DNA of 64,000 nucleotides from Akkermansia muciniphila (GTDB taxonomy: Bacteria > Verrucomicrobiota > Verrucomicrobiia > Verrucomicrobiales > Akkermansiaceae). The stretch lies in NCBI GenBank assembly GCA_945888515.1, contig CAMDAD010000004.1:1-64000 (forward strand), given 5' to 3'. Every line of letters starts with the position of its first letter. The stretch's first letter is position 1. This document shows positions 22,119 to 34,484 of this stretch, one piece after another. A model generated the notes under the pieces. It was not told the origin of the DNA. It saw only the letters and a program-made list of their open reading frames with translations, and searched no databases. The position numbers and the translations under genes are program-made.

Positions 22119-23984
22119 ATGACGTCCCGCCATCCAGTCCGACGTGTATTTCACGGGGTAAAATCGTTTTTCTACGGCGAGCACCTCTCGGCATTCCCAT
22201 GGGTGGGTCCGATGCAACGCTATGATGTTCCGAAATTCAAAGCAGATGTTCGAGCTTCCGTGAATGTCACGCTACTGGCAGTGCTTCAGGGAATTGCCTT
22301 TGCGGCCATCGCTGATCTACCCATCGTATACGGAATTATCGGCTCCATTGTCGCATCCATCGTGGCGCCGTTTTTCGCCGGCTCCCGCCACACCATCCTT
22401 GGCCCGACCAATGCGACGGCTTTCATGCTCTTTTCCTTTTTCGCCGCCTCACCCGAATTGCGCGCGCGTGAGATGGAACTGATTCCTCTGCTGGTGCTGA
22501 TGGTCGGTCTATTTTGCTTGATCGGAGCGATTCTCCGAGTGGCCGATTTACTGCAGTATATTTCCCGATCGGTGCTAGTCGGTTATGTGGCAGGCGCTTC
22601 GATTTTGATCCTGACCAATCAGAGCAAGCATGTGCTGGGTCTGACATTGGATGAGCAAAGAACTCGCACGTTTTTCGGTGGATTAAATCAGTTAGTCGAA
22701 AACCTTTCACTCACGCAATGGCAGCCACTACTCGCGGCGAGCACGACTTTTTTATGTTACATCCTGCTGATGAAAAAGCGTCCGCGATGGCCGAATTTCG
22801 CGATTATGCTCTTGGTTTCATCGGCCATCTGGGGTGCGCTGTCCTATCATGGCATCGGCTCTTTCGGTGGTCTGGAGCGTTTTCAGACATTTTCCCTCGT
22901 CGACCTAATGCCCAAAGGCCCCGATCTAAGCCGCAGCGGTATTTTTGATGACTTCAGCAGCCTCATCGGTCTTGCCTTCGCTCTCGCATTCCTCGCTTCC
23001 CTGGAAAATACCATCATGGCAAAAACACTGGCGGCTCGGACAGGAGAACTGGCCAAAGTCAACCAAGATATGTTCGCTGTGGGTATGGCAAACATTGCCT
23101 GCGCGCTCACCGGAGGCATGCCCGCTTCCGGGTCGTTGACAAGATCCGCTCTGAATGAATCATCGGGGTCACGCACTCGATTTTCTTCTCTTTACTCGGG
23201 GATCTTTACCTTAGCGATTTGTCTACTGATGGCATTGTCGCCGCAGTGGGGCCTGCCACTGATTGACTTTGTGCCAAAAGCCACACTGGCCGCGCTCATC
23301 ATCGGACAGGCCCTCACTTTGTTCAACCTGCCAAACATAAAGGTCTGCCTGCGCTCTACACCTGACGATGCCGCGGTCTTGATTGCCACGTTTGCCGCCT
23401 CTCTGATCGCTCCTCTGGATACGGCGATTTTTCTGGGTGTTGCCGTTTCGATTGCGCTCTTTTTGCGCCGTGCCAGTCGCCCGTATCTGGTCGAATACAA
23501 TGCTTCCGATAGTGGCGACCTGAGGGAGATTCGCGAGAAAACGAACCGAAACAATCCGTCGATCTCGCTGGTTCATGTCGAGGGCGATCTATTTTTCGGC
23601 GCGACCGAAATTTTCCGCTCTCAGATCCAGCGCATCACGGAAGATCCTTCGTTAAAAGTGATCATCCTCCGCCTGAAAAACGCTCGCCATCTCGATGCCA
23701 CATCTGTCATGGCAATGCAGGAATTGATTTACTTCGTGCGCTCGCAAAAACGCCACTTGATCATATCCGGTTGCCCTCGTTCCATCTATCGCGTCCTGAA
23801 AAGCTCGGGATTGCTCGCAGTGTTACAAGCGGATTGCGACGTCGCCGCTGGAGAATCGAATGTTTTCCCAGAAATACCGTCCAATCCGAACTTGTCCAAT
23901 CGCTGCGCCTTGAAACGCGCGCAGCAGCTACTGGGGACGAACAAAGCAGATTTGTTGATTTTCGTGGATCAGAAAAAAACTTGA
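22119..23984 (+). CDS. SulP family anion transporter with STAS domain
   Basis: This is a 621-residue protein. The membrane domain has about 12-14 helices and typical SulP features (GIAFAAIADLPIVYGIIGS near the start, and TGGMPASGSLTRSALN). A cytoplasmic STAS domain follows at about residues 480-575 (VHVEGDLFFGATEIFRSQI, then LRLKNARHLDATSVMAM). SulP proteins carry sulfate, bicarbonate or dicarboxylates, and the substrate cannot be told here. It starts nine bases after the LptF/G gene, so the two are probably one operon. A further putative anion transporter (UPF0324) is at 4426. Confidence 0.9.
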   Translation: MTSRHPVRRVFHGVKSFFYGEHLSAFPWVGPMQRYDVPKFKADVRASVNVTLLAVLQGIAFAAIADLPIVYGIIGSIVASIVAPFFAGSRHTILGPTNATAFMLFSFFAASPELRAREMELIPLLVLMVGLFCLIGAILRVADLLQYISRSVLVGYVAGASILILTNQSKHVLGLTLDEQRTRTFFGGLNQLVENLSLTQWQPLLAASTTFLCYILLMKKRPRWPNFAIMLLVSSAIWGALSYHGIGSFGGLERFQTFSLVDLMPKGPDLSRSGIFDDFSSLIGLAFALAFLASLENTIMAKTLAARTGELAKVNQDMFAVGMANIACALTGGMPASGSLTRSALNESSGSRTRFSSLYSGIFTLAICLLMALSPQWGLPLIDFVPKATLAALIIGQALTLFNLPNIKVCLRSTPDDAAVLIATFAASLIAPLDTAIFLGVAVSIALFLRRASRPYLVEYNASDSGDLREIREKTNRNNPSISLVHVEGDLFFGATEIFRSQIQRITEDPSLKVIILRLKNARHLDATSVMAMQELIYFVRSQKRHLIISGCPRSIYRVLKSSGLLAVLQADCDVAAGESNVFPEIPSNPNLSNRCALKRAQQLLGTNKADLLIFVDQKKT

Positions 23985-24022
23985 TGATTTTTCGCAACCA
24001 ATTCCACGGCGCGGGGTTGTTG

Positions 24023-24054
24023 ATGGTGGAAAAGCATTTTCTGCAATCCACCAT
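24023..24054 (+). promoter_or_regulatory. Hairpin just upstream of the EF-hand gene
   Basis: ATGGTGGA (24023-24030) and TCCACCAT (24047-24054) are perfectly complementary. The intervening 16 bases contain a GCA/TGC pair that can extend the stem. The hairpin ends 13 bases before the ATG at 24068, so it would sit at or next to the ribosome-binding region. A regulatory role is an inference. Confidence 0.45.
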
Positions 24055-24067
24055 ACAAAACAGCACT

Positions 24068-24409
24068 ATGAAAGCAATATACACTATCATGATCGCATCT
24101 GCCCTCGTTGCAGTAGCATCCGCGCAAGCTCCCGAAGGTCCCAAGCCAGAGCGCAAAGGTCCTCAAGGTGGACCGCCTGCCGAGATGATTGCGAAGTTCG
24201 ACAAGGATGGCGACGGCAAACTCAGCGATGAGGAGAAAAAAGCCATGATGGAAGAGCGCAAAAAACAAATGCTCACCAAGTTCGATAAAGACGGCGACGG
24301 CAAGCTCAGCGATGAGGAGAAAAAAGCCATGCGCGAGGCGATGGGCGGTCGTCCCGGTGGCCCAGGACGCCCCGGTGGTGCTGGCGCCCCCAAAAAGAAG
24401 GCTGAATAA
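24068..24409 (+). CDS. Secreted EF-hand protein with Gly/Pro-rich tail
   Basis: This is a 113-residue protein with a signal peptide (MKAIYTIMIASALVAVASAQ). It has two EF-hand loops of the form FDKDGDGKLSDEEKKAM, beginning near residues 43 and 71. Each has Asp at loop positions 1, 3 and 5 and Glu at 12, as calcium ligation requires. The two repeats are nearly identical and 28 residues apart. The tail is Gly/Pro/Arg-rich and ends in lysines. Calcium binding in the periplasm or outside is likely; no partner is evident. The longer open frame upstream is not used because the signal peptide fixes the start. A terminator follows directly. Confidence 0.8.
   Translation: MKAIYTIMIASALVAVASAQAPEGPKPERKGPQGGPPAEMIAKFDKDGDGKLSDEEKKAMMEERKKQMLTKFDKDGDGKLSDEEKKAMREAMGGRPGGPGRPGGAGAPKKKAE
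24194..24331 (+). repeat. Tandem EF-hand-coding repeat, 84-base period
   Basis: Two copies of a roughly 55-base unit begin at 24194 and 24278. They share long identical runs, including GGCGACGGCAA and CTCAGCGATGAGGAG, which points to a recent duplication inside the gene. Confidence 0.8.
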
Positions 24410-24526: not shown

Positions 24527-27500
24527 TCAACTGGCCTGCGTTGTGATTTTTCGCCCGCGGGAGACCAACAGGCCAGTGGCTAGCACGGCGCAGAGAATCA
24601 AAGCCAATCCGTATCGAGTTTTGCTCTCAGACTCGAGAGTCAACTGCAGGTGCATGGGCTTGCCACCCTCGACCTGAATACTACGACCAAATGTCAGCAT
24701 GGATCCACGCTCCGGAACATTGATCTCCAAACCGGACGACGCTGGTTCCGCAGCGAGTTGCTGATTGACGATGCGTTGCGCGATCGCATTCAACGCCGCA
24801 TTTTCATCCGCTGTATTGCCTTCAATGAATCGGTCGAATTGCTTCGGGTCATAATTGAATTTCCCCTGAAGCAGTGGGTTCGCCAATGCTGCCTGCTCGA
24901 GTTGTTGATTGTCAGCCCCAGATTGAGATTTATGATCGAGAAACATTTTCTGCCGTCGAGTGTTCAGACCAAGAACGGCCTGCTGGGTACGCAGTTCTCG
25001 CCATTGAACGCGCGCATCTTCATTCGTCGCCTCATCCAGCAACCCATTGCGCGCGGCGTTGCCCAGAGCGATCGATGCTCGTTCTTGATCGCCTTGACTG
25101 ATCCAACTGCTGGCTTGATCAAACACTGCAACCGCTTCCGCTGAGCTACTAGCTTTTCGCGCGCTGACGAAACTTTGGTAATTTTCCAGTCGGAATGCTC
25201 CGAGACGGGTCTGATTTTTCAAGTCGAAGTCGCCCTCGTGATCTTGCAATCGCCACCCCTCTGGTAACAATACGCGCCAGGTGAGATTCTCCATCGGCAC
25301 ACTCAGAGAGGGGCCTTCCAGTTTTAAAGCATCACCAGCAGCGGCCGCGTAGACGAACCGAACGGATGCTGGTTTTTGTGGATCTGCTGCTGGGAACACA
25401 TAGAACAACCAATCGTCACCCTCCCGCACGAGCGAGGCACCTTCATCGTTCACCAAGACATTGTATAGTTCGGCGCCTTTGGGCAATCGCAAGCGCAGTG
25501 TTCCTTTTTCGGCAACCTGTATTTGCAAGTTCACGGCAGTAAGTGCCTCTCCGCGCGATGCAAGCAAGGTCGTGAGTATGCCCTCTACGACGCGCATTTT
25601 CTGAATGTCTGCGAGCTGATGGCGTTGATAGAACAACGGCAAGTTCGATTCGAAATTGTTGACCTTGAATGATAAGGCGGGCGATACAACGTTGCGCAAT
25701 TTCGGAAGAACTGCCTGAATCGCAGTCCAGTCGGTGGCTTGCCATCCATCGGGCAAATTCTTATCCACACTCAGTTCCATACGTCCTCCTGAGCGAATTG
25801 CGGCAAAATAACTGACCTGCTTCGCTTCCAACAATCGTAGCGGCGTGATCATATCACTAGACCCTTCCGGCAACTGTTGCTGAAATTCCAGATTCACAGT
25901 GCTACTACCCGTCACGCCGCGTTGAAAGCGCACTTCCCAGACATCAGATTCTCCTTCGACCTTTAGGAAATCTGCTACGTTTGGCCCACTGGCGCGCACG
26001 GTGCCGACTGTCGCTTCGTTCATGCCCGGCAGGCGAATACGCAATTTTTTTATCGCAGCGTTCTCGATTTGATAGACGACATCGGCTTTCGTGCTGAGTT
26101 GTCCCTCGCGCAAGACCACCTCATGAAATACCTGTGCGGTGACCCAAGGGTCCAGCTCGTCGATAGAAAGCCCCAGGCGCCAGTCTTTTTGCAGCAGACG
26201 GAACGCAAGAGCTCCGATTCGTAACGCTGCCTTGGCATGAGCCTGCGGCGCATTCGCAAGATCGCGGGGATCCATCGGAGAAACATTCTCACGCTCGGTC
26301 ACACCGACGCGCATCCCCTGCTCTGGAACGATGGTAAGAATCCCAGACTCACGCGTGGCCTCACGCAAAACCAGTCGCGGCACATTCCAGTTTTTCTGCG
26401 CACCTGTTCCAGCACCAGTGAAGCTCAGATGAAATTGCTGACGCCCCAGAGTGCGACCGTTCAAATGCAAGGTCAAGAGGCGAGCGCCAGCATTGTCCGC
26501 CTCGGTCCAGTGGCTCAGCGCCGCACCAGAAGCACTCTCGACCTCCAAGCCCTTAGGAATCTCTAACAACAAACGAAACATTCCTGCTCGGGTGATGGTG
26601 ACGGCAAGATCGGCCGAGAGCACTATGCGATCATCTCCCAAGGATAGCACCTGCCAGGTTTCCGCTCTCATTTCAGCAGCTACGGAGGCAATCCTCGCTT
26701 GGAGAGAAGCAGGCGCACTGCCAAATCGAAAGACTTGCTGAAGCGTCACAAGAGGGACGCCCTTCGCATCGCGTGGTAGGTGCTTTTCATCGAAATCATC
26801 CTGATTGACTGCGGCCATTCCTTTTGCGGTGAGTTTTTCCGGTTGTGCGTCATCACCGAAGCCGAGGGCAAACAATCCGACTTCACCAGCAGCCCCCGTG
26901 ACGCGCAATGGTTCCAGATTCATCTCGACAGGCAGAGCCGCCGTGCCGCGCTGTGTGTGGACGGTCAATTGAAACGCTTCTGTTTGCGCTGGCTCAATCG
27001 CGACACGTAGCTCTGACTTGGTGGGGTCGAAACGCCAAACCCCCGTCGGTCCGTCGGTGACATCGCTCACCGTAAAACCAGCAGGTACTACCATCAATAG
27101 CTCCGTGACTTGCCCCTGTGAAGGGCGCACCAACAGCGATTGACGACCATTTACTACACCGGGCAAGGGCATGATCAATTGAGAAGATTCAACAAAAAAT
27201 ACGCTTGGTTCGTTTTTTTTGTTTTGTTTGCGCGCCTGGGTGATGATTTCCACTTGAGACTCTGGTTTGAGCCAAAAGATTGCGGCGCTCTGCAGATCAT
27301 TACCCGCCTGTGGCGTCTCCACCCGTGCCGCTGCGGCAGAGGCGAACTCCCATCCGCCTTGATCCCATTGCAGAGACAGCTTGCGAACGGTCGCAAGTGC
27401 GGTTGGGAATTGCCATGGCAGCTGCGCCTGTGGCAGAGGCATTTCAAACTTTGCACGAGCCGTCAGCATACCCTTCTGGTCGGCAACGATGACATACACA

Positions 27501-30500
27501 GCATGACCATGGCGCGTTTCACGAATGACATGCATCCCCTCACCCGCAAACTCGCCTAGCACAGCAGGCGCCTTCATTAAGCCGAAGCGGTCGCCAACTT
27601 CGGCACGTATCATCACTTCCACTTCACCAAACAATCGTTGCTGCTTGATCTCGCAATCATAGATCATGCGCTCAGCCGTTTTTTCCATCGAAAAATCGTT
27701 AGCTTGCGCTTTCGGCATTCCGCTGATCAAGAGGCAGAGCAAAGACGCTGCGGCAGGTGCTACCGACTTCACCATGGCGCGGCGCAAACGAAGCAGCGAA
27801 GTCACGCAGAGAAGGGTGGCCACCATACCGAAAAATATCGGCACCCCATTGCGGATCGATAGCAAGGCAAGCGCGATCAGCATGACTCCACCGCCCCTCC
27901 ACCAGAAATCATGCCGCCACCAACCACGCGCTAGGGCAATACAGCCACAGATCAAACCGAGCCAAAACGAGCGGCCCAGCATGGTAGCCCAGATGGAGGC
28001 GTTGCCAATTTCCATCGTCATTGCCGCTTCCGCTTTGACTACCGGTGCCGCATAGTGCAGTGTGGACGATGGCAATGTGGCAGTGCTAAAGCTGCTGAAT
28101 AAAAGCGCGGCGGCGATCAATGCACCCACTAACAACAGCGAGCCCGACCACACGGGAAAACGCGATAGCCATGCGGCCATGCCTATCACCAAACCAAGCA
28201 CCAAGGTCGGCCACACGTTTCGCGATAGCCATTCAAAGCCATCCTCCCAGCTTGTCATGCGCACCATTTCCAACGTGCCTCCCAGCGGGCGCAAGACTTG
28301 TCCCTCATCACCTGTGACCGTCCACTCGCCGATGACTGTCGGTGCCTGCAATACCGGTGCTTGCAAGGTGACCTTGGTCGGCTTCTCAGAGGATGTGCCA
28401 TAGCGCAAAAGCACTTCCACGGCCTGATTCAGATCATTTTTCTGAGGCAGAGGTATGACGATTTCATCTTTGTCGAGGCGTGGGTTTGCCGTGACCTCAT
28501 TGACCTTGGTTTCTAACAACAGGGCGCCTGCCGGTAACTTCATGCGCAGGGCCTCGCGACGCTTGGATTTGACAAAAAACCGCGCCTCAGTAACGAGTTG
28601 TCCATCGCGCGAAACCTGACTGGCGAGCTTTACGAAGTCGACTACCTGCTCGACAGTCTCGCCTGTTTTGTACCACCGAAAGCCGAGATCAATGGAAAAA
28701 TCTCTCGCCGTGTATTGCCACGCGCAAAGTGTCGGCGCCGCGCTTAATACTCGGTAATCCGATGGCAACTCGTTCGCTTGTAAGGGCAGCACGTTTCCGC
28801 TCACGGCTGTCACCTCAAAGTCCACTTGCAAGGGGCTCACCACCTGGACGTAGCCACTCTCGGATTGCACGGCAAGAGGGCGGATTTCTCCCGGTGAAAT
28901 CGAACCGCCTGCGGACTGAATCGGTTGCTCGAAACTTAGCAACATGGTGCCCGCACCGAGCAAGGGGCGAGAGAGCGGTATGACCAAGATATTTCCCTCA
29001 CGCCGCCATTCGTGACCGATGTTCTGCCCCGTGATCTCCATGTTGCCGATCGACTCGGGGATTTGCACGCGCCATTCGCTCGCAGGAGCGCCCACGACGA
29101 AATAATTAAACAGCACCGATCCGTAAACCGCGCCCTCTTTAACCGAATACAAGTGAAACACATCCGCTTGAATACTCTGCCCGAGAGCTTCGGCATTCAT
29201 GGTCGCCATCCACTCCGATTGCTTGATCCGATACGCTTGTTGCAGGCCTTGCTGCTGACGCGGAAAATAGGAGAGCGGAATTTCCGTGAGCTGTGTGCGC
29301 TCACTGCTGGACATCCGATAGCCAGCAGCCGCCGCGACGCCGATGAAGCCTCGATGCGACTTCGTGCTGGGAAACCGCAAAGGGTAAAGCACCCATGGAC
29401 CCGCCTTCGCTGCTTCATTTTTCTCGAGTCGCAACTGAATCAACTGCCTGTCTTTGACCGCTTCTCGAAAAAGTATTTTCAGTATGCGATAGCCATCGCT
29501 CACTTGCGTGGCCAGCGCGTAATCCGCTACTGCGGCACCCTGGCATAAAACGACTGTGTAGTCCTTGGGCAAAAGAACTTCCCACTCACGCAGGGGAGCC
29601 TCGCGGATATCGATCTCCAGATCAGAGATGATACGTCGATCCGTTTCCGCGAACTCGTAAGTGGTCAGTTCATTGATCGAGGTCTCAGGCAACACATGAT
29701 CCGCTCCTATCTGGTAAGCATACTGGGTCGCGGGAAAACGATATACAAACGACTGCCGCAGATCCTTCGCTGCGATGGGAAACTGTTCGGGTGCTAGTTG
29801 AATCAGTCCGCTCGATGAGGCGACTTCGATTTTGACTGCCCCTTCATTTGCAATACGCAGCCACCCGCTATGACGCAGCGAACCGATGGGTTCCACGCGC
29901 AGTCCACTCGTTTTCACCGGAAAATCTCCAAGAGGTATCTGTGCTTCGAGCGATATGCGCCCCGTTCCTTCCATCGCACGATTCAGTTGCAACGTGAGGA
30001 GTCTCGTGTCCTCGGTCTCGCGTATGGACCAGCCCACGACTTGCTCACCTTTCACCGCCAGAACCTCTCCCACGCCATGCAACTGTAGTGATAAAGTAGG
30101 AAGTTTTCCCTGCAAGATCCGCACGTCGACCTGGGTTGATTGGCGCAGCAGTCCACTACCCAAACGCAAATCTGTGAGCTCAGTGCTAGAAAAAAACAAG
30201 GCCCCATCCGCAACCTCGCGACCAGCCCGACAACCTAACAAAACTCTTCCATCCGCAGGCAAAAATCCCCGCCATTGATTGTCTTGCCAAGTAGGCACGA
30301 CAGGCTTGCTGGCATCAAATTGCATCGTCGCGGTCAGTCCATCTAACCAAATGGGCACTACCACACCTGCCGGGATGGCAAAATCTAACAATAACCAACC
30401 GTCAATCTGCGTCAGCGGCACATCGAAGCGAATCTGCACCGGCACCTCACCCACTCGCTCGGCTTGCCAGTCATAGACATAGGTATCTCCCTCCTGACGC

Positions 30501-31300
30501 AGGCTCATGCGCCAATCATTGGCCACTGAGGTATCCGTGAGAGCGATGGCGCCACGACAAAATTCCATAGATGCCCCGGCGCGTTTGACTTGAGCAGTCG
30601 ATTGAAAGACGAAGGAAACTGATCGCTGATCCGCTGACACTGTGCCGCGCAACTGGCTGTCGCGAAAGGAAATTTCTCCTAAACCCTGACTGACGTCCAA
30701 TCGCAAGCGCGGACGTCCCGTGCCCATGAATTTGAGATTTTTCGATTGATCCACAGGCCATAAATTCGCCACTTCGATGACGCGCGCGTTTTTCATTCCA
30801 TCATCCGTCAATTTCACTTGAATCGTAAAACCAACCGCGTCTCCCTGACCCAGTAGCCAAAGGTCGCAGTGCTGTATCGCAGAGTTCAGTGCGAGTTGTG
30901 ATCGAACCACAATCGTCCACTCTTTCAAATCAGTCGCGCTATTCATGCGAACATCGAGAAATCGCTGACCCGCTGCATCGCGTCGAACCGACCAATCGAT
31001 GAACCCTTCGCCACTGACATTGGTGATTTCCCCCTCGCCGCAGAGGGACAAACTCATGCGCTCTCCAGAACCTTGGTGAAGTTGGTAGCGAATGTTCGCA
31101 ACAGTTTCGATGTGATCCACCGCGCGAGTGGCTTGCAGATCGACAGCGGCGGAAAAAAATGTCGGCACAGGCTTGGCCGAGCGCGGCATGGGCAGGAACA
31201 TGACGCCGTTAGGATCAGCGGAAATATCTTGCGCGGTCGACATCGCAAACGCAACTGTCCACAGAAGGACCATCAATCGGAGTAGGTTTGTCTTCAACAT
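24527..31300 (-). CDS. Giant (2257-residue) beta-rich membrane protein of the ECF-VWA operon
   Basis: I do not recognise a named family. Visible parts in order: signal peptide (residues 1-23); about 1000 residues of repeated beta-strand modules; a cluster of five or six membrane helices at about 1030-1200; a second extracytoplasmic region of about 1030 residues; and a last helix at about 2232-2248 with a short basic tail. The two large regions look like distant copies. Each holds a module beginning VFHxxxxxEG, then a G-x-G loop, a strand set ending LxFEQPI or LEFQQQL, and a Pro-Leu-containing segment. The gene is last in a tight operon after the ECF sigma and VWA genes; the gap to the VWA gene is four bases. 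A large envelope-surface or stress-sensing structure is plausible but unproven. Confidence 0.75.
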   Translation of the reverse strand: MLKTNLLRLMVLLWTVAFAMSTAQDISADPNGVMFLPMPRSAKPVPTFFSAAVDLQATRAVDHIETVANIRYQLHQGSGERMSLSLCGEGEITNVSGEGFIDWSVRRDAAGQRFLDVRMNSATDLKEWTIVVRSQLALNSAIQHCDLWLLGQGDAVGFTIQVKLTDDGMKNARVIEVANLWPVDQSKNLKFMGTGRPRLRLDVSQGLGEISFRDSQLRGTVSADQRSVSFVFQSTAQVKRAGASMEFCRGAIALTDTSVANDWRMSLRQEGDTYVYDWQAERVGEVPVQIRFDVPLTQIDGWLLLDFAIPAGVVVPIWLDGLTATMQFDASKPVVPTWQDNQWRGFLPADGRVLLGCRAGREVADGALFFSSTELTDLRLGSGLLRQSTQVDVRILQGKLPTLSLQLHGVGEVLAVKGEQVVGWSIRETEDTRLLTLQLNRAMEGTGRISLEAQIPLGDFPVKTSGLRVEPIGSLRHSGWLRIANEGAVKIEVASSSGLIQLAPEQFPIAAKDLRQSFVYRFPATQYAYQIGADHVLPETSINELTTYEFAETDRRIISDLEIDIREAPLREWEVLLPKDYTVVLCQGAAVADYALATQVSDGYRILKILFREAVKDRQLIQLRLEKNEAAKAGPWVLYPLRFPSTKSHRGFIGVAAAAGYRMSSSERTQLTEIPLSYFPRQQQGLQQAYRIKQSEWMATMNAEALGQSIQADVFHLYSVKEGAVYGSVLFNYFVVGAPASEWRVQIPESIGNMEITGQNIGHEWRREGNILVIPLSRPLLGAGTMLLSFEQPIQSAGGSISPGEIRPLAVQSESGYVQVVSPLQVDFEVTAVSGNVLPLQANELPSDYRVLSAAPTLCAWQYTARDFSIDLGFRWYKTGETVEQVVDFVKLASQVSRDGQLVTEARFFVKSKRREALRMKLPAGALLLETKVNEVTANPRLDKDEIVIPLPQKNDLNQAVEVLLRYGTSSEKPTKVTLQAPVLQAPTVIGEWTVTGDEGQVLRPLGGTLEMVRMTSWEDGFEWLSRNVWPTLVLGLVIGMAAWLSRFPVWSGSLLLVGALIAAALLFSSFSTATLPSSTLHYAAPVVKAEAAMTMEIGNASIWATMLGRSFWLGLICGCIALARGWWRHDFWWRGGGVMLIALALLSIRNGVPIFFGMVATLLCVTSLLRLRRAMVKSVAPAAASLLCLLISGMPKAQANDFSMEKTAERMIYDCEIKQQRLFGEVEVMIRAEVGDRFGLMKAPAVLGEFAGEGMHVIRETRHGHAVYVIVADQKGMLTARAKFEMPLPQAQLPWQFPTALATVRKLSLQWDQGGWEFASAAAARVETPQAGNDLQSAAIFWLKPESQVEIITQARKQNKKNEPSVFFVESSQLIMPLPGVVNGRQSLLVRPSQGQVTELLMVVPAGFTVSDVTDGPTGVWRFDPTKSELRVAIEPAQTEAFQLTVHTQRGTAALPVEMNLEPLRVTGAAGEVGLFALGFGDDAQPEKLTAKGMAAVNQDDFDEKHLPRDAKGVPLVTLQQVFRFGSAPASLQARIASVAAEMRAETWQVLSLGDDRIVLSADLAVTITRAGMFRLLLEIPKGLEVESASGAALSHWTEADNAGARLLTLHLNGRTLGRQQFHLSFTGAGTGAQKNWNVPRLVLREATRESGILTIVPEQGMRVGVTERENVSPMDPRDLANAPQAHAKAALRIGALAFRLLQKDWRLGLSIDELDPWVTAQVFHEVVLREGQLSTKADVVYQIENAAIKKLRIRLPGMNEATVGTVRASGPNVADFLKVEGESDVWEVRFQRGVTGSSTVNLEFQQQLPEGSSDMITPLRLLEAKQVSYFAAIRSGGRMELSVDKNLPDGWQATDWTAIQAVLPKLRNVVSPALSFKVNNFESNLPLFYQRHQLADIQKMRVVEGILTTLLASRGEALTAVNLQIQVAEKGTLRLRLPKGAELYNVLVNDEGASLVREGDDWLFYVFPAADPQKPASVRFVYAAAAGDALKLEGPSLSVPMENLTWRVLLPEGWRLQDHEGDFDLKNQTRLGAFRLENYQSFVSARKASSSAEAVAVFDQASSWISQGDQERASIALGNAARNGLLDEATNEDARVQWRELRTQQAVLGLNTRRQKMFLDHKSQSGADNQQLEQAALANPLLQGKFNYDPKQFDRFIEGNTADENAALNAIAQRIVNQQLAAEPASSGLEINVPERGSMLTFGRSIQVEGGKPMHLQLTLESESKTRYGLALILCAVLATGLLVSRGRKITTQAS

Positions 31301-31304
31301 AACA

Positions 31305-33752
31305 TCAGTCGTTCAATTGGCGTATCATTTCTAACAATTCAATCACACGGGGATTAGCAGAAAACTCATCGCGGATGCGCTGCTGAGCTTGGGAAATTTC
31401 GGAAAAACGGATCATCGAACTTGCTGGCCCACCTTGCAATTTCTGCGCCGTGAGCATCGCCATACCGGCCAGTTGCATGGCCGGAGCTGTGCGCTCGAAC
31501 GCGGGGACGGTGGCATCGTAACGAATCGTCCACTTGCGCTCGATCATCTGCTGCGTTGCCACATCGCGGAAACGCACCGAAACTTCGCCAACATCGCCCA
31601 CCCCATCAGGTAAGAGCTCCACCTGATAGAGCGCCTGCCCTGCTTCCGCCGCAGCCATCTCCGCGGCATCGACTTTGTCATTCCGGAAGTCTTCGGTGTG
31701 GAGTCGGTCTTTTTCAAAGCCCACCAACTGATACTTGCCTACGCGCTTCGGATTGAACTGTACCTGCACCTTGACGTTTTCCGCAGCGGGGCGGAACGCA
31801 CCGGCGAGCTGCGTGGCGAATTGTTGTTTCGCTTGCTCAGCATTGTTGATCACATAATAGCGACCGTTACCGTGGCGGGCGATTTCCACCAGCAACGGGT
31901 CGTTCAGCCCATCCGTGCCGATGCCGGCGATATCAAACGCGATGTTTTTCTGGCGGAGTGCCTTGACCCATGCCGCGAGGCGACCCGGATCGGCATTGCC
32001 GAGATTCGCCGCGCCATCGGTGAGCAGGAGCAAACGATTTTGCGCACCGGCGAGTTCATTTCTCTTCGCCACGATCTCGCCAAGCTTGAGCGCTTCTTCC
32101 AAATTCGTACCACCATCGCTCGGAGTGCGGGCGAGTAGATCAAGAAGGGGCTGCGGTTGATCGCCGGGGATTTTTTCCGCCAACAATCGCGGCGTGCGCG
32201 AGAAACCGACGACGGAAATGTGATCCTGCGGTTGCAATAAGGAGCTCAGTTCCCGCACCGCCGTGAGCAAGGCACCGCTACGATCACCCCGACTCATCGA
32301 GCCCGATTGATCGATTAACAAGGTCAGATGCAAAGGCTGCCCCGCGCCGCGACCACTGGCCGCCGTGCGCAGCCCGATGCGCAGGAGATTGCGTAGGGGT
32401 AAAATCGGATGTGCGGATTGTTCTATCGATGCCGCCACCGGCTCCTGTGCGGTGGGCACGGGATCGCCATAGTCGAAGGCATTGTAAAATTCCTCCACAC
32501 GCACTGACTCCGCCGCTGGGCGTTGGCCCTGGGCCATCGCCGCCTGAGCGATGCGGAAGGCGTTGTCGCTGACTCGCAGCGAGAAGGTCGAGTAGGGTTC
32601 TTGCTCAGCGGAAATTTCCGCTAATGAAAAAAGTGTTTCCTCGCGTTTTTTGAGTTCATCGACCTGTCCGACGGCGTCGATTTCTTGCTGGTTTTCCTCC
32701 AAAAGCTTTTGGGAATTCAGCAAAGAATGATCATTACGCGCTGGATTCGAGCGAATCGGAGTATCAGCGAGTTGATCGTTAGGCGCATTTTTTCCGCCAG
32801 AAAATCCCAACCACGCTTGTTTTTGATCGACTGCGGTTTCTGCCAATGCCCCCCCCGCTAGGGTGCCACTCAATGCGGTTTGCCCTGCCTGGTCCAATTC
32901 CGCATTCGCCATGCTGCCACCACTTGCACTTCCGGATTCCACATCACTGGTAGGCTTTGCAGCAGCTTGTGGCATGGGATCGGAAAGTTCCCATGCACGA
33001 TCAATATCTTCTAACAATATTGCTCTGTTGGGCGAAGTTGTCGCCTCTCCGCGGCCGCGACTGGAACGGTTCACAGCAAGATCATGAGGATTCTTTTCAA
33101 AAAGTACGCCGCTGGCCGAAATGCCATCAACATATGAAAATCTTTGCTCTTTGCCTTCTCTGATCAGGGAATCTTTTGTCATTGGTTGCCGCTCACCTTG
33201 TGATTCTGCCGCAGTGGCGAGAGAGAGAGACGTCTCATCCGTCGACTCATCATGATTCTCCCGTCCAGTCGTTGCAGTTGCTGCCATCCTCGACTGAGCA
33301 CCGTAGTCTGAAATCTTTCGCTCCGAATGGACGACTGTCAACTCTGGGCTCATCCTCTGCGGCCACACGCCCGTGCTCAAGCTGGCAATGGCCAAAAGCA
33401 AAAACAAGAGCGCCGCTAGCGGGGCCATGCGCATCCACCAGGGACGGAGTGCTTTGGCAGTCGATCCCATGGCAATCGCAGTATCTGCTACACCAAGTAT
33501 CGCATCCAGCTTGTGCCGTTTTTCCTGCGGCAATGTCCATTTCTCCTCTTCAGAAACGGCACTCGCCCCCCGCAGTAATTCATGCATCGCCAGCATGCGA
33601 CGTTGGAATACCCTCCATTCGGGGTATTGCTCGCAGAGCGATTCGAGCTCCGCTGCCTCAAACGACGACGCCTCACCCAGAACCCACGCAATGATGCGTG
33701 CTTCCAGAGCCTCATCGCCCATCGGGATTAAATCCGTCATGTTTTCCTTCAT
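31305..33752 (-). CDS. Membrane VWA-domain protein with anti-sigma-like N-terminus
   Basis: This is an 815-residue protein. Residues 10-60 (EARIIAWVLGEASSFEAAE and following) resemble the short cytoplasmic anti-sigma-like domain found ahead of many VWA proteins in Planctomycetes and Verrucomicrobia. One membrane helix is at about 108-128. A low-complexity periplasmic stretch follows, then a YfbK-type pre-domain (VRVEEFYNAFDYGDPVP) and a von Willebrand A domain at about 470-650 with the MIDAS motif DQSGSMS and LLTDGAANLG. A C-terminal beta domain ends the protein. ATG 33752 or ATG 33740 (with AGGA just before it) may be the true start. It lies between the ECF sigma gene and the giant gene, which suggests that it controls that sigma factor. 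Confidence 0.82.
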   Translation of the reverse strand: MKENMTDLIPMGDEALEARIIAWVLGEASSFEAAELESLCEQYPEWRVFQRRMLAMHELLRGASAVSEEEKWTLPQEKRHKLDAILGVADTAIAMGSTAKALRPWWMRMAPLAALLFLLLAIASLSTGVWPQRMSPELTVVHSERKISDYGAQSRMAATATTGRENHDESTDETSLSLATAAESQGERQPMTKDSLIREGKEQRFSYVDGISASGVLFEKNPHDLAVNRSSRGRGEATTSPNRAILLEDIDRAWELSDPMPQAAAKPTSDVESGSASGGSMANAELDQAGQTALSGTLAGGALAETAVDQKQAWLGFSGGKNAPNDQLADTPIRSNPARNDHSLLNSQKLLEENQQEIDAVGQVDELKKREETLFSLAEISAEQEPYSTFSLRVSDNAFRIAQAAMAQGQRPAAESVRVEEFYNAFDYGDPVPTAQEPVAASIEQSAHPILPLRNLLRIGLRTAASGRGAGQPLHLTLLIDQSGSMSRGDRSGALLTAVRELSSLLQPQDHISVVGFSRTPRLLAEKIPGDQPQPLLDLLARTPSDGGTNLEEALKLGEIVAKRNELAGAQNRLLLLTDGAANLGNADPGRLAAWVKALRQKNIAFDIAGIGTDGLNDPLLVEIARHGNGRYYVINNAEQAKQQFATQLAGAFRPAAENVKVQVQFNPKRVGKYQLVGFEKDRLHTEDFRNDKVDAAEMAAAEAGQALYQVELLPDGVGDVGEVSVRFRDVATQQMIERKWTIRYDATVPAFERTAPAMQLAGMAMLTAQKLQGGPASSMIRFSEISQAQQRIRDEFSANPRVIELLEMIRQLND

Positions 33753-33763
33753 AGTCGTATTTT

Positions 33764-34345
33764 TTATCCTTCTTTACTTTCTACGCCCATGCGCCTCATC
33801 GCATCCGCCAAGCTCTTAAGCAAAAAGTGCAGCTTGTAGCCCACATGGCTCACCGTCAGTCCGGAGCGTTTACTAATCTCATCGTAGGAGAGACTGCCGG
33901 TGTATTTCCATGAAATGAGTTGCTGGTCTTGTTCAGGCAATTCTGCCATTAGCATACGCAGCACGCCAACCGCTTCGCTTCTGCCCAGTATTTCAGCGGC
34001 CGTGGGAGTCTCGCTGGCCCAGTCACTACCGTCATCAATCGTGGTCTCACGACGGTGATCACGGAGATGATTGAGCGCCATGTTGCGAATGGAACGAAAC
34101 AACCAGGCACGTGGATTTTCCACCTCCTGCCAATGCTCGTGCAAGCGCAGAAACGCCTCCTGCACTAAATCCTCCGCCGTTTCACGTTGCCCTACGATGC
34201 CATGGGCAAAACGCAACAAGGCCGATTCCTCGGAATCGAACAAGGCGCGGAGACTGGGTCGCTCTTCGGTCATGACAGCAGGGCGAGCGGGCCCCGTAGC
34301 GGGGGCGTCGCCTCGATCAGAGGAATGTAAGAAAAGTGGTTCCAT
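33764..34345 (-). CDS. ECF-family RNA polymerase sigma factor
   Basis: This is a 193-residue sigma-70-related factor. Region 2 is at about residues 38-100 (AEDLVQEAFLRLHEHW, then PRAWLFRSIRNMALNHLRD). Region 4 is at about 130-185 (LPEQDQQLISWKYTGSLSY, then the recognition helix around SHVGYKL). The N-terminal 25 residues are not conserved, so ATG 34270 is another possible start. The VWA gene with an anti-sigma-like N-terminus starts 11 bases downstream, the standard arrangement for a sigma/anti-sigma pair. The gene is divergent from acs across 181 bases. Confidence 0.88.
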   Translation of the reverse strand: MEPLFLHSSDRGDAPATGPARPAVMTEERPSLRALFDSEESALLRFAHGIVGQRETAEDLVQEAFLRLHEHWQEVENPRAWLFRSIRNMALNHLRDHRRETTIDDGSDWASETPTAAEILGRSEAVGVLRMLMAELPEQDQQLISWKYTGSLSYDEISKRSGLTVSHVGYKLHFLLKSLADAMRRMGVESKEG

Positions 34346-34484
34346 GAAGGGTAAAAGAGAAATTCCATGACCTACGACTTATCAGACACGTGACAGAGAA
34401 GAAACTTAGAAAAAAGTATTTTTTGATCTACCGAGGGATCCCAACATCACGAAACTCTGTCAATTTACCATTTACCTCTGGCGT

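Follow-up and report, generated by a model that had tools for sequence, protein, structure and literature searches.

In the window, that is, the first 64,000 nucleotides of contig CAMDAD010000004.1 of Akkermansia muciniphila, we study an operon of three genes on the minus strand, which encode an extracytoplasmic function (ECF) sigma factor, a membrane protein with a VWA domain, and a giant envelope protein. Coordinates are those of the window, and other genomes, contigs and loci are given by our handles (G, C and L), the window's own genome being G000. The features of the operon are as follows.

34384..34420, minus strand: promoter-like motif, consisting of an A/T-rich lead, CTAAG at 34409-34405, 15 nt, and GTGTC at 34389-34385, about 39 nt before the ECF start codon
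34345-33764, minus strand: ECF sigma factor, 193 aa, with sigma2 and sigma4 only (aligned with 13 relatives)
33752-31305, minus strand: membrane VWA protein and putative anti-sigma factor, 815 aa
32619..33377, minus strand: variable periplasmic linker of the VWA protein, with weak, reordered remnants of the pilus secretin PilQ (EDIDRAWEL; DTPIRSNPA)
31300-24527, minus strand: giant envelope protein, 2257 aa

The VWA protein is divided, by residue, into these parts.

12-86: anti-sigma-like domain
about 105-130: transmembrane segment
about 131-378: variable linker
380-457: vWF_A/YfbK_N
476-643: VWA, with DxSxS at 481
654-711: YfbK_C

The three genes lie head to tail, with 11 bases between the sigma and VWA genes and 4 bases between the VWA gene and the giant, and in this the coordinates agree with an earlier note on the same DNA. 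That note had named the loss of this order in relatives as one finding that would refute it; no such loss was seen. A scan of named genomes confirmed 116 loci, of which we kept the best 80, from Verrucomicrobiota and Planctomycetota; they include the isolates Rhodopirellula maiorica SM1, Aporhodopirellula aestuarii, Planctomycetes bacterium CA13 and Haloferula rosea. Sixty of the 80 loci hold all three genes, and the order sigma, VWA, giant on one strand is kept in 60/60; the remaining 20 are cut short, their contig starting within the giant or VWA gene or a little before it. The arrangement is thus not one of chance. The loci share no fourth gene, the next commonest neighbour family being present in 8 of 80. 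The sigma and VWA genes are found without a giant in the fetched stretches of L041, L042 and L043, as well as in G008, and L042 and L043 have the flanking YfbK parts but no VWA domain between them. The giant is matched at E≤0.001 in 15 of 29 genomes, the window's own included; three of the matches (G020, G021, G026) are distant paralogues, with best E-values of 1e-8 to 1e-11, which leaves 12. Among 387 sampled genomes of the phylum, 77 have a match. Two contigs of one metagenome-assembled genome (MAG), C1_MAG_00076, each carry a whole operon (L068 and L079), and three MAGs labelled Akkermansia muciniphila (L067, L082, L089) have giants 58-76% identical to the window's; these labels may be wrong.

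The aligned upstream regions of the sigma genes yield the consensus YYAAG-N15-GNGTC. Written as a regular expression, the motif is found in 46 of 68 operons, compared with 11 of 1360 shuffles and 46 of 2010 windows drawn at random from these loci, some of which may contain true sites; its spacing is identical in 45 of the 46 positive operons. A refined matrix places 65 of the 68 operons above the 99% level of shuffles, a count made on the training set, and the window's site scores 26.4 where that level is 4.6. The matrix misses L109, in which the spacing is one longer, L043, and L115, where the sigma start is probably miscalled and a copy of the motif is visible further upstream. When the window and the 80 loci are scanned on both strands (3.26 Mb), sigma starts account for 60 of 64 strong sites. 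The window, and likewise its whole genome, holds a single site with zero mismatches, that of this operon. A motif conserved before the sigma gene implies autoregulation, and we infer that the sigma factor reads the motif of its own operon. Since the motif stands at the operon, the operon is the first predicted target, and the predicted regulated output includes the giant. In one genome of the same genus (G006:C23, L211:553-1028) the operon is absent, while the promoter (score 31.2) is kept together with a truncated sigma remnant of 134 codons; as its sequence reads, this remnant is a trace of operon loss.

The identity of the sigma factor, as given in the earlier note, is borne out by Sigma70_r2 (PF04542, 2.7e-16) and r4_2 (PF08281, 1.1e-8), both above their gathering scores, and by TIGR02937 above its cut-off; there is no sigma3 domain. 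The adjoining gene encodes a protein with a hydrophobic segment, its membrane anchor, and a complete YfbK module: vWF_A (PF12450), VWA and YfbK_C (PF12034) score 48.5, 42.4 and 78.5 bits against cut-offs of 25, 23.8 and 25. In an alignment of the 14 first relatives, the only invariant columns of the VWA protein are in its N-terminus. A model of this part (132 residues, from 54 sequences, mean pLDDT 81) has helices at 14-24, 30-42, 44-65 and 76-86, and a membrane helix at 105-126. Its best solved matches by VIA-align are the anti-sigma factors RslA (Z 6.2), RsiW (5.6) and MucA (5.4 and 5.2), followed by an unrelated chain (4.2) and then by ChrR (3.9, rank 6). Of the 54 N-termini, 16 match the NCBIfam family 'anti-sigma factor' (NF052375, best E 2e-6), the window's own not being among them; none matches a Pfam family. 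The N-terminus is thus predicted to fold like anti-sigma domains. Together with the strict gene order and the predicted helical domain with its transmembrane segment, these matches support the proposal of the earlier note that the first two genes encode a sigma/anti-sigma pair, which we regard as likely. Anti-sigma domains of the zinc-binding (ZAS) type have the motif HX3CX2C; this type was ruled out, as the whole VWA protein contains one cysteine. Second, diverged YfbK-type VWA proteins were seen in relatives (L218, L219, L220 and L221), each directly behind a different ECF sigma gene (4/4 regions opened), and the pairing of ECF with YfbK-type VWA proteins looks general.

Between the transmembrane segment and the VWA module, the linker runs from about 105 to 1294 aa across 70 proteins, some of them cut by contig ends, and the linkers of relatives do not align with each other. 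Those of five relatives match the Amuc_1098-type pilus secretin PilQ at E-values of 1e-40 to 1e-111. The longest captured part is the TPR and N0/N1 periplasmic region of PilQ (NF042912, E 1e-103 and 1e-111). The linkers are pieces of PilQ, not PilQ: the best of the five reaches 372.7 bits against a whole-protein cut-off of 750, over the N-terminal part only, and in some loci the pieces are in scrambled order. With a profile built from ten Verrucomicrobial PilQs, a PilQ segment is detected at E≤1e-5 in 37 of 72 VWA open reading frames (ORFs) from 71 loci, versus 1 of 627 other ORFs, and in none of 84 giants and 58 sigma factors. The frames that carry one are 37 of the 53 outside Planctomycetota and 0 of the 19 inside, whose linkers were compared with this Verrucomicrobial profile and not with their own secretins; Planctomycetota were assigned by hand, on the basis of record titles.

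In 14 of 22 cases the best linker segment is closest to the PilQ of its own genome, with 29 PilQs to choose from. G418 is counted as a miss, its PilQ ORF having probably been picked wrongly, and in G005 the genome's own PilQ is not the closest. A tree was built from 28 PilQ and 22 linker segments; its branches are long and its bootstrap is unsettled. On it the linker label requires 15 changes, where shuffled labels average 16.6, and at least 4 changes are forced by the starred branches; the linker segments form one clade in 0% of 200 bootstrap trees. The approximately unbiased (AU) test rejects one clade (p 1.3e-4), and we reject with it one ancient fusion to PilQ. These sequence comparisons point clearly to repeated capture of PilQ pieces in the linker. 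G015 provides the sole case in which selection was measured: an 84-aa linker copy shares 88% identity with the PilQ of its own genome and 71% with the next best PilQ, and its ratio of nonsynonymous to synonymous divergence (dN/dS) is 0.05 at a dS of 1.46, a mark of strong purifying selection. This captured segment is therefore maintained. The window's linker, compared with its own PilQ, gives a best local score of 67, which is reached by 2 of 1000 shuffles, with the remnants in swapped order; when the linker is searched against its own genome, the only other match is again PilQ, a weak one (E 0.24). Other material has been inserted into linkers too, such as PATR in L136. The linkers of L068, L069 and L074 contain a coiled coil that by eye recalls Wzz chain-length proteins, which Pfam did not confirm. 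A PilQ N-domain segment (E 8.5e-62) also occurs in a 2266-aa frame at L217:5201-12001 that has no Pfam match at E≤0.01; similar frames are present in G005, G015, G004 and G008.

The third product consists of a signal peptide, half 1, a membrane block (about 1030-1193) whose last part again resembles a signal peptide, a beta-rich half 2, a helical bundle and a C-terminal transmembrane segment. The earlier note had called it a membrane protein of no recognised family, an unknown surface or envelope machine. The absence of a family holds, with no Pfam or NCBIfam match at E≤1 and no sequence match to solved structures; its anatomy can now be added. The halves match each other: half 2 in the window aligns to half 1 in orthologues (20-23% identity over about 470-770 aa, E 7e-14 to 2e-23). 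In L140 and L145 the giant is split into two adjacent genes, the second of which begins, as judged by eye, with a signal peptide, and the fused giants have a signal-peptide-like stretch at that same junction, also by eye. The giant thus appears to be a fusion of two exported proteins. Half 2, modelled from 47 sequences (mean pLDDT 85.8, pTM 0.40), comprises about 800 residues of beta-sandwiches, a helical bundle at 846-991 and a C-terminal membrane helix. It resembles ribophorin I/Ost1 (Z 14.8, model residues 526-1035, 321 aligned, with a root-mean-square deviation (rmsd) of 18, the domains being shifted) and the N-domains of M1 aminopeptidase (F3) (Z 13.8, within residues 710-1031, rmsd 2.8 over 145 aligned); integrin alpha chains are also among the fold matches. 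An M1 aminopeptidase was rejected as an identity for the giant, which has no HExxH catalytic motif, and for the same reason a binding scaffold is, from the model, likelier than an enzyme. An alpha-2-macroglobulin was rejected as well, there being no such match in the profile searches or among the fold matches listed.

Distant tandem relatives of the giant's half occur as separate genes of 1157-1466 aa in L036, L037 and L038, in whose stretches no sigma or VWA relatives were found; one of these genes (L036:1169-5569) carries PilQ/STN segments. In G025 the giant (L033:5165-12181) is interrupted by an in-frame TGA and was read as two ORFs. In the window, the end of the giant gene is convergent with a gene at 23771-24409 for a small EF-hand-like protein with DKDGDGKLSDEEKK repeats.

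We also looked at sites of the motif away from the operon. Nine regions were opened, chosen by eye as the most motif-like; in 9/9 the matrix score lies between 17.0 and 31.8 and a gene starts 2-40 nt after the site. Four of the genes encode a macroglobulin (G000, G001, G003, G005), one is the truncated sigma remnant of G006, and the remaining four (L209, L210, L214, L215) encode proteins with signal-peptide-like starts, signal peptides being judged by eye. That is, in four genomes a near-match site stands before the same exported protein of roughly 2000 aa, which in the window's genome (contig G000:C11) is an alpha-2-macroglobulin by Pfam, with MG2, the bait-region domain, A2M and bMG10 all above gathering. 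None of 20 orthologues scanned has a thioester-like motif (C-x-E-Q).

We then scored the upstream regions of the 22 macroglobulin orthologues with a readable gene start, using the matrix trained on sigma upstreams only. Twenty of these come from genomes with the operon or at least the VWA gene (G432 and G433 were checked for the VWA orthologue only). In 14 of these 20 genomes the site scores above all 1260 background windows (maximum 12.2): G000 24.9, G009 21.3, G001 31.3, G005 31.8, G007 22.1, G008 28.8, G003 25.8, G015 20.7, G017 12.8, G432 28.8, G418 19.0, G409 17.4, G410 25.8 and G420 12.5. Twelve of the 20 also exceed the maximum of 1200 shuffles (13.04), which G017 and G420 do not. Where the longest frame of a macroglobulin gene contains the site, as it does in several, a later start was assumed. 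G260, in which the operon is absent, has no such site (score -7.5). The link between motif and macroglobulin is thus, by these sequence scores, strong in part of Verrucomicrobiota; it was not seen outside that part. G025 has tandem macroglobulin frames on contig C56.

Other exported proteins lie behind sites in regions that were picked for those sites. In the window's genome (G000:C38, L210:693-1351) a 205-aa protein follows directly upon a site scoring 26.8, and its homologue in G008:C71 (L215:741-1381; 41% over 206 aa) follows one scoring 24.4; neither has a Pfam match. In L215 a DUF4139 gene comes next with its own motif (26.1). Smaller exported proteins are found behind sites in G000 (191 aa, 18.9) and G005 (371 aa, 17.0). 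Five further regions of G008 were opened. A site scoring 27.0 in L274 is followed after 68 nt by a second macroglobulin-like gene (29% over 154 aa), and in L277 a 175-aa exported protein comes after a site scoring 20.8. The sites of L276 and L278 have no near gene, and L275 has no site ≥9.1. To the remark of the earlier note that the regulated output was undescribed, we can therefore add a predicted output: the operon itself and, in some lineages, alpha-2-macroglobulin and other exported proteins.

The macroglobulin of the window's genome contains, before its A2M domain, the stretch GNRSGSAAITRDSISSILNNPNR, one residue off PilQ 574-596; the stretch scores 133 to PilQ, against at most 69 in 1000 shuffles. 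The bait region is placed just before the 'RKNLxETAFF' start of the next domain. Eight of 22 macroglobulins searched, two of the 22 being N-terminal fragments, match this part of PilQ at E≤1e-3, and the linkers of L074 and L080 carry GNRSGDGAITRNNIDAILNNP. Within the genus, the PilQ-bearing stretch is the least conserved of the macroglobulin (0.41 and 0.46 in 60-residue blocks; the block at 481-540 comes next with 0.48, and the rest average 0.76). PMC4498604 describes a disordered bait region and a proposed defence against host proteases.

Gene order, domain anatomy and the conserved promoter-like motif, which recurs before the macroglobulin and at further sites, are read from the DNA itself, as is the repeated capture of PilQ pieces. 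As to what they do together, we consider it rather probable that the three genes form a switch for envelope damage, built on a membrane-tethered, autoregulated pair of ECF sigma and anti-sigma factors, with the giant and, in some lineages, the macroglobulin as its output. The N-terminal helices of the VWA protein would hold the sigma factor at the inner membrane, and the periplasmic part, formed by the linker and the YfbK-type VWA module, would sense the signal. Loss, cleavage or pulling of that part would free the sigma factor, which would then read the YYAAG-N15-GNGTC promoter of its own operon and so yield more sensor and more of the giant periplasmic beta-scaffold. In part of Verrucomicrobiota it would also drive alpha-2-macroglobulin, a protease trap, and some other exported proteins. 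We infer in this the binding of sigma by the N-terminus, proteolysis or envelope damage as the signal, and a role of the giant as scaffold or as partner of the VWA module. Since in many relatives pieces of PilQ have been copied repeatedly into the sensor, it is a good candidate for a damage alarm, and perhaps the switch senses proteases. We offer one version of this tentatively: the linker may be an integrated decoy, a protease bait for which the cell has used parts of its own exposed PilQ, such that a foreign protease attacking PilQ or the envelope would cut the bait as well, free sigma and so induce giant and macroglobulin. It is a similarly speculative idea that sensor and trap share their lure, the macroglobulin bait being able to carry the same kind of PilQ piece. 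The decoy would account for PilQ pieces in both.

Several observations weigh against these proposals. The switch is assigned from sequence and predicted structure, so that binding, expression and protease action are predictions. For the anti-sigma domain Foldseek returns weak E-values, 0.77 at best, its Z values lie in a range where helical matches can be generic, and the window's own N-terminus matches no family in NCBIfam or Pfam. The bait proposal is weakest for the window's own member, with its weak PilQ remnants, and for Planctomycetota. Exact sites number 8 against 5 for the reversed control pattern in 12 genomes, 4 of the 8 being at the operon itself, and one-mismatch sites are fewer than in the reversed control (111 vs 168 in 9 genomes). 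With counts near or below the control, the pattern alone cannot separate targets from background. Six of the 20 macroglobulin upstreams lack the motif (G433, G025, Opitutaceae EW11, CA13, Aporhodopirellula and R. maiorica), and a macroglobulin at E≤1e-60 is present in 8 and absent in 22 of 30 named operon-bearing genomes. G006, which has lost the operon apart from its sigma remnant, keeps a decayed site before the macroglobulin (13.0). Finally, only about 11 nt often separate the end of GNGTC in the macroglobulin site from the first plausible start, a very short leader. Many genes in L208, L209, L213, L216 and L227 have GNGTC at about this distance from their first start, and the distance suggests that these messages have very short leaders.

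It is important to weigh other explanations of the same patterns. The PilQ pieces may be docking domains, by which the anti-sigma protein inserts itself into the secretin complex of the type IV pilus, or competes for it, and reports pilus assembly, not damage. The longest captured part, TPR plus N0/N1, is a folded region likely to have partners, and the G015 segment is under the strong purifying selection described above. However, the pieces are often short secretin-domain bits in scrambled order; by the Verrucomicrobial profile they occur in 0/19 Planctomycetota and are absent in 16 of 53 others; and docking leaves the secretin-domain piece in some macroglobulin bait regions unexplained. We therefore hold docking to be unlikely. 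Equally, the linker may be a permissive, unselected spacer that gathers random in-frame fragments, in which case PilQ would be irrelevant to sensing. The spread of linker lengths, the PATR insertion and the weak remnants of the window all fit a spacer, yet PilQ is far over-represented among the VWA frames, its capture is repeated, and the one measured case is under purifying selection, so that we find this improbable too.

Cell-surface signalling of the FecI/FecR type, from an outer-membrane receptor to a periplasmic STN-like domain of the anti-sigma factor, deserves mention since the N0 domain of PilQ is STN-like, about a dozen linkers contain PilQ residues in the 250-490 range, and the layout of ECF and membrane anti-sigma is the same. 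It is very improbable here. Most members, among them that of the window, do not have this PilQ region, and membership in the FecI/FecR group was rejected, there being neither a conserved fourth gene, such as a neighbouring (TonB) receptor, nor a FecR match among the 54 N-termini. Moreover, the operon promoter is conserved, whereas PMC8103513 names FecI-like systems as an exception to autoregulation. As for the macroglobulin, its link to the motif may be a coincidence, or the work of another sigma factor with a similar promoter. The link is confined to part of Verrucomicrobiota and missing in 3/3 Planctomycetota tested and in EW11, other ECF genes lie beside YfbK-type paralogues, and operon-less G006 keeps a weak site. 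Nevertheless, 14 of 20 sites surpass each of the 1260 background windows under a matrix that was not trained on macroglobulin sites, and we think such a coincidence unlikely.

With these results a signalling operon common to Verrucomicrobiota and Planctomycetota gains a concrete anatomy, a reporter-ready promoter and named further targets. If sensing by cleavage is shown, the repeated uptake of pilus-secretin pieces by the sensor, and by the bait of a protease trap with the same promoter, would form a bacterial counterpart of integrated decoys. Even without the decoy, a large unannotated protein kept in two phyla is given a place. In the titles and abstract openings listed by literature searches we found no description of the operon, of a YfbK-type VWA anti-sigma factor or of an ECF/macroglobulin link, and an earlier mention is possible. 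New here are the promoter motif, the sites before macroglobulin and other exported proteins, the repeated capture of PilQ in the linker, and the giant as two fused proteins.

Among known systems, the operon resembles the pairs of ECF sigma and class I anti-sigma factors SigL-RslA, SigW-RsiW, AlgU-MucA and RpoE-RseA in its two-domain ECF sigma factor, in its co-directional membrane protein, a putative anti-sigma factor with a predicted N-terminal helical domain, and in a conserved upstream promoter-like motif that would imply positive autoregulation. Unlike class I anti-sigma factors, the VWA protein places a YfbK-type VWA module behind a hypervariable and often PilQ-bearing linker; unlike those pairs, the operon has a giant beta-protein as its third gene; and its promoter reads YYAAG/GNGTC, in contrast to the AAC and CGT boxes given in PMC8103513. 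With E. coli YfbK and its family the VWA protein shares the C-terminal module of PF12450, VWA and PF12034, above gathering, but here an anti-sigma-like domain and a transmembrane segment are fused on, the gene lies behind an ECF gene, and L042 and L043 are without the VWA domain. The macroglobulin of the candidate regulon is like ECAM of E. coli in its MG2, bait-region, A2M and bMG10 domains, whereas it has no thioester-like motif, carries a PilQ fragment in its bait (in the window's genome) and lies outside the operon. Half 2 of the giant is similar at the level of fold to ribophorin I/Ost1 and to the N-terminal beta domain of M1 aminopeptidase; in contrast to both, the giant has no sequence match to solved structures and no HExxH, and is a bacterial, membrane-anchored protein of tandem domains.

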